A stretch of DNA of 38,797 nt from assembly GCA_013152895.1 (NCBI GenBank), contig JAADFN010000172.1, positions 1 through 38,797 on the forward strand, written 5' to 3'. The DNA is from Acidobacteriota bacterium (GTDB lineage: Bacteria; Acidobacteriota; Thermoanaerobaculia; Thermoanaerobaculales; Sulfomarinibacteraceae). Under the pieces are notes generated by a model, which was given only the letters and a program-made list of their open reading frames with translations, did not search any database and was not told where the DNA came from. The position numbers were made by a program, and so were the translations under genes. Below, piece after piece: positions 5,450-35,633 of this stretch. Within the stretch, counting starts at the first letter, position 1, and each line of letters starts with the position of its first letter.

Positions 5450-6910
5450 CTACGTTTGATAGAGGTGCGTGGCGGAACGTCCAGGTTCCGAGGAGCGGAA
5501 GGTGAGCGTGCCTTCAAGCCGCGTGTGGGCGGGAATCGTGACAGGATCGTCGCCCGCCTCGATCCTCACCCGGCCGAGAGCGACGACGTTCGACCCAAAG
5601 AAGACATTGCCATGAACAACGAAGCTCGAGCAGGACCTCAGGGAAGGGGAACCGGCCGGAAAGCGCTCTTCGAACTGATCGATTCGCGTGTAGAACCGCC
5701 GGTCCAGGTCGATACGCGGCGGTGTCTGGGCCTTCGTGGCGAGGACGACCCTAAAGTCCGGAGCGAGCTCGTAGGCATCCGACCGGACGGCGAGGAGATC
5801 GTTGGTCGTTTTGACAGGCGAGAAGCGAGCCCTCGACACATGAATGGCAGCCGCCTTGGGGAAGAGGGAAACCGCTGCGCCCATGGCGGTTTCGAGCTGG
5901 ATCACCTTCGGGCTCGACGGATCGCGCGGATCGAGCGTTTTCCGGTTGACGATCGTGGTCAGCGGAAGAACGTTCCCGTGGCGCGAAAGGAGATCCTTCA
6001 GGGTGGGCAGGTGGATCCAGATATTGTTCGTGTTGAAGTAACGGTACAGTTGCGTGTCCTGAAACTCGTCCCGCTCGTCTGGTGGCGTCTGAGCGGCTTC
6101 CCGTAGCGCGATACGGCCGTCTTTCAGACGGCAGAGGTGGCCGCCTTTCCGATCGACCTCGCTGCGGCGTGCAACCTCGATCATGAAATCCGCCCCGGTC
6201 CGAGCCATGTACCCGAGCAGCGCCGGGTCCATCACGGCGCCCAGGTTGTCCGCGTTGGACACGAAGGCATACGTGATGCCGCGATCGAGAAAACGCCCGA
6301 GCATGCCCGATGTTGCCAGGGAGGTGTACAGATCGCCATGACCGGGCGGACACCATTCGAGCTCCGGGTCCTTGTCGTGGACAGCCGGAGTCATGGTGGA
6401 TTCCAAGATCTTGGGGACGCGGTGCTGCACGAAGCTCAGCGGGAATCCGTCCAGCTTCAGGCCCTTGTACCGTTCGAGAAGCTCCAGCGTGTCCCGGTCG
6501 GTCCGGAAGCTGTTCATGAAGACGAGCGGAACGGGCGCTCCTGCCTTTTCCCTGAGCCAGAGCGTCTGCCGTACGATCAGATCGAGGAATGTCAATCCGT
6601 TCTTGACCGGAATCAGCGACTTGGCCCGGGAAAGCCCCATGCTCGTTCCCAGGCCTCCGTTCAGCTTGATGAGCGCGACATGGCGCACCATCTTCTCGCC
6701 GGTGGCTCGATACACGTCGAGGCCGTCACCCGTTGGGAGATCGTGGATGGGCTCGATATGCTCGCGGCTCAAGAACCCGGATTCTCCGCATAACAGCCGT
6801 TGAAGGTGAAGCTTGAACGCCTTGACCGCCTCCTCCGGCAGGTTGTGCGAGCGCATCCTTTCGATGAAGGCCCGTTCAGGTTCGTGGGGCGTGTTCGCGT
6901 TCTTACTCAT
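5450..6910 (-). CDS. UTP--glucose-1-phosphate uridylyltransferase (eukaryotic-type UGPase)
   Basis: Makes UDP-glucose from UTP and glucose-1-phosphate in the cytosol, a precursor for polysaccharides, LPS sugars and glucosyl compatible solutes. The 486-residue protein belongs to the eukaryotic-type UDPGP family, not the short GalU type. It has the nucleotide-binding LNGGLGTSMG motif (83-92), a SRAKSLIPV stretch, VSNADNLGA, FNTNNIWI, and a C-terminal left-handed beta-helix-like tail. The ATG at 6910 has no Shine-Dalgarno, but a TATTAT hexamer ends nine bases upstream, suggesting a leaderless or near-leaderless mRNA. A longer in-frame start at 7006 would run into the transglycosylase gene and adds only low-complexity residues. 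The gene diverges from the transglycosylase across 20 bp. Confidence 0.9.
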   Translation of the reverse strand: MSKNANTPHEPERAFIERMRSHNLPEEAVKAFKLHLQRLLCGESGFLSREHIEPIHDLPTGDGLDVYRATGEKMVRHVALIKLNGGLGTSMGLSRAKSLIPVKNGLTFLDLIVRQTLWLREKAGAPVPLVFMNSFRTDRDTLELLERYKGLKLDGFPLSFVQHRVPKILESTMTPAVHDKDPELEWCPPGHGDLYTSLATSGMLGRFLDRGITYAFVSNADNLGAVMDPALLGYMARTGADFMIEVARRSEVDRKGGHLCRLKDGRIALREAAQTPPDERDEFQDTQLYRYFNTNNIWIHLPTLKDLLSRHGNVLPLTTIVNRKTLDPRDPSSPKVIQLETAMGAAVSLFPKAAAIHVSRARFSPVKTTNDLLAVRSDAYELAPDFRVVLATKAQTPPRIDLDRRFYTRIDQFEERFPAGSPSLRSCSSFVVHGNVFFGSNVVALGRVRIEAGDDPVTIPAHTRLEGTLTFRSSEPGRSATHLYQT

Positions 6911-6918
6911 GACGACGA

Positions 6919-6925
6919 TATAATA
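6919..6925. promoter_or_regulatory. Overlapping divergent -10 elements (TATAAT + / TATTAT -)
   Basis: The 20-bp space between the UGPase ATG (6910, minus) and the transglycosylase ATG (6931, plus) holds TATAAT on the plus strand (6919-6924), a perfect -10 consensus ending six bases before ATG. TATTAT lies on the minus strand (6925-6920), ending nine bases before the UGPase ATG. Start sites 6-9 bases downstream would fall at or within three bases of each ATG. I see no good -35 for either. Both promoters cannot easily be occupied at once. Confidence 0.6.
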
Positions 6926-6930
6926 ACGGT

Positions 6931-7614
6931 ATGAGCACGTTTGGTCGAACCGTCGCGATGGTAGGGCTGGCCATGGTGCTGGCCGTAGAGGTGGGCTACG
7001 GCGCATCGCCGTCGCCGGCGGGGCTGCCCATCGCCGTGCAACGGGGGACGCCCAGGCGAAGCCTCAGGAACTTGATCACGCGAATCAGTGTCGAGCGGGG
7101 TGTCGATCCGCGCCTGGTGCATGCGCTGGTCCGCGTGGAATCCGCGTATAACCCGAGGGCGATCAGTCCGCGAGGCGCCATGGGCCTGATGCAGATCATG
7201 CCCGCCACGGCCAGGCGCTTGAAGGTTCGAAACCCGTTCGATCCGGTCGAGAACGTTCGAGCCGGGGTCCGTGAGCTCGGCCGATTGATTCAACGGTATG
7301 CGGGAGACGTGCCGCGGGCACTGGCGGCGTACAACGCTGGTGAGAACGCAGTGAGCCGTTACGGTGGTATTCCGCCGTACCGTGAAACCCGCCGCTACGT
7401 GGCAAAGATCATGTCCCTCTACACTGGACAGCCGTACCGCATGGGCCAGGCAGGTGTTCGCGCGCCCGTACGGCTGGTGCGCGACAGCGCTTCGGGAGAA
7501 GTGGTTATTACGAATTCTGGCGGCGAGCAGGAGCAGCCCCCGATCCACATGGAAGGCGGTTTCTTCCGGCACACATCGTTCCACTCGCGTCTTTCCGGCG
7601 GCTTTGGACGTTAG
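6931..7614 (+). CDS. Secreted lytic transglycosylase (SLT/Slt70-like)
   Basis: Peptidoglycan-cleaving lytic transglycosylase, probably periplasmic. The 227-residue protein has an N-terminal signal sequence (hydrophobic 8-24) and one SLT domain (about 45-165): catalytic Glu70 in RVESAYNP, then SPRGAMGLMQIMPATA, NVRAGVRELG and ALAAYNAGENAV, all hallmarks of the goose-lysozyme-like fold. The last 60 residues are unassigned and contain a SASGEVVITNSGG segment. ATG at 6931 has no Shine-Dalgarno and sits six bases after a perfect TATAAT, so the message is predicted to be leaderless. There is no LysM or other cell-wall-binding domain. Confidence 0.88.
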   Translation: MSTFGRTVAMVGLAMVLAVEVGYGASPSPAGLPIAVQRGTPRRSLRNLITRISVERGVDPRLVHALVRVESAYNPRAISPRGAMGLMQIMPATARRLKVRNPFDPVENVRAGVRELGRLIQRYAGDVPRALAAYNAGENAVSRYGGIPPYRETRRYVAKIMSLYTGQPYRMGQAGVRAPVRLVRDSASGEVVITNSGGEQEQPPIHMEGGFFRHTSFHSRLSGGFGR

Positions 7615-7732: not shown

Positions 7733-7738
7733 TATCAT
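7733..7738 (+). promoter_or_regulatory. -10 element TATCAT for a leaderless M50 protease mRNA
   Basis: TATCAT at 7733-7738 ends exactly six bases before ATG at 7745, preceded by GTG. There is no Shine-Dalgarno between. The spacing is the same as at the transglycosylase start. Confidence 0.5.
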
Positions 7739-7744
7739 ATCGGC

Positions 7745-8431
7745 ATGTTGGCCGTTACCGAGCTCGCAAAGATCATTCTGGATCTGGCAGCTCTCCTGTT
7801 GTCGGTTTCTCTTCACGAAATCGCACACGGGAGGGTCGCCCTTGCATTGGGAGATACGACGGCGCGGGACCTGGGGCGTCTTTCGCTCAATCCCGTCCGC
7901 CACATTGATCTGTTTGGCAGCATCATCGTTCCGGCGACGCTGGCGATCGCCGGAGCGCCCATTTTCGGCTGGGCCAAACCGGTCCCGGTCAGGCCCGACA
8001 GGTTCGCCGAGCCGCGGCGCGGAATGGCTCTCGTCTCGATCGCTGGGCCCCTGACGAACCTCGTGCTGGCCGCCGTGTCGTTGGCGTGCCTGAGACTGCT
8101 TGAAGCCGTGGTGCCGCACACCCGCGATGTAGCCCTCATGAGTCTCGAAAGTGGGGCGCACCAGCCCATCGGTCTTTTCTGGGCCATGTCCACCTTCCTC
8201 GTAGCCATGCTCCTGATCAACATGATTCTCGGCGTTTTCAACCTGCTTCCCATCCCTCCGTTGGACGGGGCTGGCATCGTGTCCGGCTTCCTTCCGGAGC
8301 CGGTCGCCCAGCGCTACGGACAGCTCGGGAAGATCGGTTTCTTCCTCATCGTGGTCTTGCTCTGGATTGGGGCGTTCGACGTCGTGTTTCGCCCGTTCAT
8401 GATTCTGATTTTCAAGTTAATCGCCGGGTGA
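7745..8431 (+). CDS. Site-2 protease family (M50) membrane metalloprotease
   Basis: Intramembrane zinc metalloprotease of the short YwhC/Rv-type M50 group. In 228 residues there are about five to six membrane segments. The zinc-binding HEIAH (24-28) lies in the first helix, and the third ligand Asp lies in NLLPIPPLDGAGI near the C-terminus. Family members without PDZ domains have few known substrates. I chose ATG at 7745 rather than the in-frame GTG at 7730, because the GTG lies inside the predicted -10. The stop is one base before the scpA ATG, so it probably forms an operon with scpAB, an arrangement seen in many bacteria. Confidence 0.88.
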   Translation: MLAVTELAKIILDLAALLLSVSLHEIAHGRVALALGDTTARDLGRLSLNPVRHIDLFGSIIVPATLAIAGAPIFGWAKPVPVRPDRFAEPRRGMALVSIAGPLTNLVLAAVSLACLRLLEAVVPHTRDVALMSLESGAHQPIGLFWAMSTFLVAMLLINMILGVFNLLPIPPLDGAGIVSGFLPEPVAQRYGQLGKIGFFLIVVLLWIGAFDVVFRPFMILIFKLIAG

Positions 8432-34813: not shown

Positions 34814-35633
34814 TCTGTGCCGTCGTACGGAGGACCTTCATCTCGCCGCGCCCGGAGATCTCGAGGTTGAGCACCTCCCCCGGATCGCCGAGATCCTCAT
34901 ACGTCTTCTTGCCAACAGAGAGGATGACACCCGCCGCGTTTCCCAAAGTGAGCGTGATCGGCGCCGGAGCATGAATGCGAACGTCTTGGCCTTCCAGGAG
35001 GAGCTGTTGCGCATATTTACCGTTCACATCCCGGTACCGGATCCAGCATTCTCTCCCCGGTTTCACGTGGAGTGAGAATGTGACGGCCCTTCCCTCTTCG
35101 CTCGGCTGGGGGGTGGCCTCGCGCACGGCCGCCGTGGCCCGTGGCACCGGCCGGGTTGCGGCTGACTGCGACCGTTGAACTTTTTCATTCGCCCGCGATA
35201 CCTTCCCGAATGTCCGGGCGCTTCGCTGGTGCCAGATGGCGACTCCAGCGATCAGGATGACGACGCCGATCAGGCTAAGCGGGAGCCAGACCCACCATCT
35301 GAAGGTCCGGCGCGGTGCCTTTGGGACGACGAGGACGGTGGGATGCGTCCCGGAATCGGACAAGAACCGCTCCCATGCGGCATCGAACCAACCGGTCAGC
35401 CGCTCTTCGTCGAACCCGATGATCCGTGCATATTGCCGGACGAAATTCCTCGAGAAAACCCGTTCCGGCAAGTACTGAAACGCGCCATCTTCCAGGGCCT
35501 TGAGAACGCGAACCGACACCTTGGTCTCGGCGGAAATATCCTCCAGGAGCAGCCCGGCGCTCTCGCGCAACCGGCTCAGCTCCTTTCCAAAGGAGCTCGG
35601 ATCCGCCGGGGCTTGGCTTGCTGGCTTCATCAT
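34806..35633 (-). CDS. rodZ: RodZ-like cell-shape protein
   Basis: 275 residues with the RodZ order: an N-terminal cytosolic helix-turn-helix of the HTH_25/Xre type (15-85; GKELSRLRESAGLLLEDISAETKVS, RVFSRNFVRQYARIIG), a membrane helix (about 109-131, WWVWLPLSLIGVVILIAGVAIW), a basic/Ala-rich linker, and a periplasmic DUF4115-like domain (185-265; FSLHVKPGRECWIRYRD). RodZ links MreB to the membrane in rod-shaped cells. TAGAAT ends six bases before the ATG; the same ATG overlaps the stop of repeat protein B by four bases, so translation may also be coupled. Confidence 0.82.
   Translation of the reverse strand: MMKPASQAPADPSSFGKELSRLRESAGLLLEDISAETKVSVRVLKALEDGAFQYLPERVFSRNFVRQYARIIGFDEERLTGWFDAAWERFLSDSGTHPTVLVVPKAPRRTFRWWVWLPLSLIGVVILIAGVAIWHQRSARTFGKVSRANEKVQRSQSAATRPVPRATAAVREATPQPSEEGRAVTFSLHVKPGRECWIRYRDVNGKYAQQLLLEGQDVRIHAPAPITLTLGNAAGVILSVGKKTYEDLGDPGEVLNLEISGRGEMKVLRTTAQNE

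Follow-up and report, generated by a model that had tools for sequence, protein, structure and literature searches.

A 20-bp divergent gap in an acidobacterial genome, read as a probable shared bidirectional promoter for UGPase and lytic transglycosylase genes

Introduction

How might two divergent genes be transcribed when only 20 bp separates their start codons? The question is raised by the window, by which we mean the whole stretch of 38,797 nucleotides analyzed here (contig JAADFN010000172.1 of the Acidobacteriota assembly GCA_013152895.1), in which a UGPase gene and a small lytic transglycosylase gene are arranged in this way. In the bidirectional promoters that owe their two-way activity to a symmetric −10 element (Warman et al. 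2021, as related in PMC10268837 and PMC12825309), both directions share a −10 element, −7T and −11A are reciprocally paired, and the starts on opposite strands lie 18 bp apart, which is the commonest spacing among known bacterial bidirectional promoters. Leaderless genes, for their part, have a TA-like signal ~12 bp upstream of the start codon and were predicted in all three of the Acidobacteria examined, at an average of 13.3% (Zheng et al. 2011, PMC3160421).

Results

The gap is exactly 20 bp long and holds two hexamers, TATAAT reading toward the transglycosylase gene (here the forward direction) and TATTAT reading toward the UGPase gene, that have five bases (positions 6920 to 6924) in common. 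In both respects the preliminary description proved accurate, and its names for the two genes are supported by Pfam matches (Table 1). Transcription starts were placed 7 nt past each −10 hexamer, a prediction from sequence alone, and would fall, as had also been proposed, at one ATG and within 3 nt of the other. These predicted starts are 18 bp apart, so that each promoter's −7T pairs with the −11A of its counterpart. The gap thus combines −10 elements on both strands, the reverse one matching at 5/6 positions, with the reciprocal pairing and the predicted spacing of the 18-bp bidirectional class.

Table 1. Coordinates of the genes, promoter elements and predicted starts at the divergent gap
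Feature	Position	Strand	Details
UGPase, UTP--glucose-1-phosphate uridylyltransferase, 486 aa	5450..6910	−	Pfam PF01704 UDPGP, E=2.4e-128; ATG at 6910; without Shine-Dalgarno sequence
Divergent intergenic gap, 20 bp	6911..6930	.	GACGACGATATAATAACGGT
Predicted UGPase transcription start (G)	6913	−	7 nt past hexamer; would leave a 3-nt leader
TATAAT, −10 hexamer of transglycosylase promoter	6919..6924	+	Begins 12 nt upstream of ATG, the leaderless offset
TATTAT, −10 hexamer of UGPase promoter	6920..6925 (read 6925-6920)	−	Begins 15 nt upstream of ATG
Predicted transglycosylase transcription start (A of ATG)	6931	+	7 nt past hexamer; genome-wide peak at equal offset
Small SLT-domain lytic transglycosylase, 227 aa	6931..7614	+	Pfam PF01464 SLT, E=2.4e-29; start codon kept in congener
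Weak −35-like TCGACC, UGPase direction	6943..6948	−	4/6, spacer 17; within transglycosylase gene; shared by the congener and by no others

The −35 zone of each promoter had been placed inside the other gene, a claim that found little support. In the forward direction no −35 element is recognizable, the best hexamer at spacers of 16 to 18 matching at only 2/6 positions, and the reverse direction has the weak TCGACC. Among 16 aligned family promoters, −35-like sequences in either direction show no conservation outside the window's genus.

The genome from which the window comes is a MAG of 2.99 Mb in 221 contigs, and ~0.94 Mb of stretches from it, containing 747 genes called by a hexamer model, was surveyed for strong −10 elements (at least 5/6 matches to TATAAT, with A2 and T6 fixed). 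Such elements lie exactly 12 nt upstream of candidate starts in 25 cases, compared with ~4 at other offsets (Poisson P ~1.6e-12), a peak that rests on a home-made gene caller weighing several candidate starts per gene; at internal start codons, strong hexamers at this offset occur at ~0.3 per 1000. The peak is the leaderless signature of Zheng et al. (2011, PMC3160421), a −10-like element ~12 nt upstream of a start that has no Shine-Dalgarno sequence, and it is present genome-wide. The transglycosylase hexamer stands at the peak position of 12, and the UGPase hexamer stands at 15. The leaderless peak is small in a 0.33-Mb sample (231 genes) of genome G007.

Signals of this type occur at other genes of the window. 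The Peptidase_M50 gene that is next along (7745-8431, plus strand) has TATCAT exactly 12 nt upstream of its ATG at 7745 (7733-7745), and near 35633 on the minus strand TAGAAT lies 12 nt upstream of the ATG of a 275-aa open reading frame.

Symmetric −10 pairs of the 18-bp type are enriched in the divergent gaps of the 0.94-Mb sample (7, versus 2.0 in shuffles) and not elsewhere, with 4 versus 3.6 in codirectional gaps and 1 versus 1.3 in convergent ones. The layout CAT-N9-ATAATA-N5-ATG has a single exact occurrence in the 2.99-Mb genome; there is no second mismatch-free match, and none of the eight near matches inspected is flanked by two convincing genes. A nucleotide search of plasmids gave no match. 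A simple sigma-70 promoter scan found 1 site where 0.9 was expected, which is not above chance, and it was therefore left out of the evidence. Judged from the peak at offset 12, the hexamers at the gap are not a product of chance.

The UGPase is 75% identical to that of WGCW01, an acidobacterial MAG that is the nearest named relative; further relatives carry the labels Thermoanaerobaculales, Thermoanaerobaculia or Holophagae. A UGPase of the PF01704 type is present in 19 of 20 family members, in none of 17 sister-family genomes and in 1 of 23 other members of the class, a distribution that suggests either horizontal acquisition or repeated losses.

Both genes were located in 18 family genomes, and in 15 of these they form the divergent pair; the counts given here for coupled and uncoupled loci come from related loci that are not independent of one another. 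ATAAT is present in all 15 coupled loci and TATTAT in 14, the exception being G009 with CATTAT. The hexamer lies 12 to 15 nt from the transglycosylase start in 14 of the 15, the exception being G016, where the distance is 21 nt and there is a possible Shine-Dalgarno sequence. Across the 16 aligned family promoters, TG..ATAATA is the main conserved block, with little else in common. TGn precedes NATAAT, forming an extended −10, in every genus except that of the window, whose two species have a full TATAAT instead, which may compensate for the missing TGn.

The 20-bp, doubly leaderless form is confined to the window's genus, in which one congener has a gap of identical length, CGCGACGATATAATAGCGGC. 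In the 13 coupled loci outside this genus, a Shine-Dalgarno-like sequence (AGG up to GGAGG/AGGAG) lies before the UGPase start and downstream of TATTAT, and the predicted UGPase leaders are 10 to 96 nt long (24 to 26 nt in 7 of 13). In the two species of the window's genus, the UGPase gene has no Shine-Dalgarno sequence and the predicted leader is 3 nt. Conservation thus holds for both hexamers and not for the exact 20-bp gap, which only the congener shares.

Three family genomes have the two genes apart. One of these, G010, reads TATACTC (reverse match 3/6), and the other two, G002 and G008, retain ATAATA; their retention of it weakens any case for taking the kept TATTAT as proof that UGPase expression is under selection. 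Elsewhere in the class, the loci fetched for the transglycosylase orthologues of other families contain no UGPase match. Most loci of family f7 keep a near-leaderless forward −10 (TGn-TACCAT or TGn-TACGAT, 13 to 18 nt upstream of the start), and in the UGPase-less loci of f7, f12 and f13 the reverse hexamer never reaches 5/6. The symmetric core accompanies the family with the divergent pair, and the reverse hexamer could be partly inherited baggage. The order-mate family f2 fails as an outgroup to polarize the promoter change because no −10 lies near its candidate transglycosylase starts. Several f2 transglycosylase starts (L254, L273-L289) sit behind GGAG-rich sequence typical of a closely trailing gene, which suggests operon expression of these homologues.

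Could the start codons have been misassigned, the real ones lying further inside the genes behind ordinary leaders? Neither ATG is preceded by a Shine-Dalgarno sequence, and a simple gene caller chose 6958 for the transglycosylase. Both ATGs and the codons that follow them are nevertheless kept in the congener, which lacks the candidate ATG at 6958 and reads MSVFGRTVVTGVMA there, and the transglycosylase start stands at an equal −10 offset in most other genera; misassignment is most improbable. A different possibility is that the promoter serves the transglycosylase only, TATTAT being the unavoidable shadow of ATAATA, and that UGPase is transcribed weakly or from elsewhere, for example from inside the transglycosylase gene. 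This would suit a forward promoter that is the older of the two, with its conserved TGn, as well as the persistence of ATAATA in two family members with UGPase elsewhere. It sits less well with the base that follows the hexamer, which is A in 7 of 25 strong offset-12 sites versus 14 of 15 coupled loci, or with the distance from TATTAT to the UGPase start, which clusters at 24 to 26 nt with a Shine-Dalgarno sequence in place. Moreover, the scanned stretch upstream of UGPase holds no second TATTAT-like hexamer, and f7 loci without UGPase are also without the reverse hexamer. We consider a one-way promoter rather unlikely.

The preliminary description had gone further and proposed that the two promoters compete for RNA polymerase, so that mutual exclusion would tie UDP-glucose supply to peptidoglycan turnover, the two being inversely regulated. 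The sites do overlap physically and could not be bound simultaneously, the divergent pairing is kept in most family genomes that have both genes (15/18), and competition can arise when one direction is strong (PMC12825309). At five E. coli bidirectional promoters, however, basal activity did not suffice for competition, which emerged only after one direction had been made strong, and weakening one direction brought the other no gain at the basal level (PMC12825309); the poor −35 elements of the present gap suggest that its activity is modest. We found no operator, no regulator and no functional or metabolic link between the genes. Competition at this gap is accordingly unsupported, as is the metabolic coupling built upon it, and a switch of this kind appears distinctly unlikely.

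Discussion

With the layout, its conservation, the genome-wide leaderless class and the enrichment of symmetric sites as observations, we read the gap as a single genuine promoter of the 18-bp bidirectional class, conserved and driven by its −10 core, a reading to which, on the sequence evidence, we assign a probability of about 0.72. Counting against this reading are the reverse direction, with a 5/6 hexamer and a 4/6 −35 element, and the forward direction, which has no −35 element. RNA polymerase carrying the housekeeping sigma factor would bind the near-symmetric core either way round and open the identical few base pairs. Starting on the first base of the transglycosylase ATG would give a leaderless mRNA, and starting 3 nt upstream of the UGPase ATG would give a nearly leaderless one; transcription, the start sites, leaderless translation and the evolutionary order set out below are all things that we infer. 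The likely outcome would be two-way expression out of one site, occupied by one polymerase at a time, with strong cross-regulation to be expected only if one direction were activated.

The relatives suggest how such a promoter may have arisen. The forward, near-leaderless transglycosylase promoter would be old; in the family its −10 would have become symmetric, firing also toward a divergent UGPase gene that is led by a Shine-Dalgarno sequence in the other genera; and in the window's genus the UGPase leader would have been lost, leaving both genes leaderless. The gap would be 20 bp long because this leader was lost against a fixed shared −10, the direction of change being itself conjectural, and 20 bp would be the limit imposed by two promoter-to-start distances of 12 to 15 nt. 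That the gap is a minimal bidirectional promoter, in which a shared −10 yields two leaderless mRNAs from starts separated by 20 bp, and that relatives preserve the intermediate steps, from a one-way near-leaderless promoter through a symmetric one with a Shine-Dalgarno-led partner to the doubly leaderless form, is a joint proposal that we advance tentatively, at slightly less than even odds.

On that proposal, the orientation of polymerase at one site would set the ratio of both proteins, with no leader for posttranscriptional adjustment. Confirmation would provide a clean, conserved natural series in which a directional promoter gains symmetry, would show a Shine-Dalgarno-led gene turning leaderless on losing its leader against a shared −10, and would add an uncultured group of Acidobacteria to the known range of bidirectional and leaderless promoters. 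It would also supply a 20-bp test piece for whether polymerase orientation alone fixes the expression ratio of two genes.

Bidirectional promoters are already known, as are leaderless genes and pairs of leaderless genes that diverge; the interest of the present case lies in its compactness and its evolutionary series. As far as PMC10268837 and PMC12825309 describe the class of Warman et al. (2021), its members likewise lie between divergent genes and have reciprocal −7T/−11A pairs, whereas the window's gap, known from sequence, has predicted starts no more than 3 nt away from its ATGs, has almost no −35 elements and belongs to a different phylum. The leaderless genes of Zheng et al. (2011, PMC3160421) similarly have a hexamer 12 nt upstream of the start and no Shine-Dalgarno sequence, but the window's two genes face each other and share a hexamer. 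At the EcoRV and CfrBI restriction-modification promoters (modeled in PMC5333194), the polymerase sites of two divergent genes overlap, as they do here; a C protein is in control at EcoRV and the C transcript is not leaderless, whereas we saw no dedicated regulator in the window. A literature search that combined bidirectional promoters with leaderless transcripts did not reveal the combination in titles or abstracts.

Juxtaposed divergent promoters are said to be common in Mycobacterium tuberculosis, in which the divergent neighbors prpD (Rv1130) and Rv1129c both have mapped leaderless mRNAs (Cortes et al. 2013, PMC3898074). Like the window's genes, they are divergent and leaderless, a likeness that leaves aside any overlap of their two −10 elements, and unlike the window's genes they are a regulator/enzyme pair. 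The window's own genome has a second divergent, leaderless-looking pair, at 8051-8081 of L156 (contig C76), where a 29-bp gap separates a MutL-like gene (GTG at 8081) from a carbon-nitrogen-hydrolase-like gene (ATG at 8051, minus strand), both products being named from sequence motifs only. The two −10 elements in this gap form the arms of an inverted repeat, ATGATA-ACGC-TATCAT.
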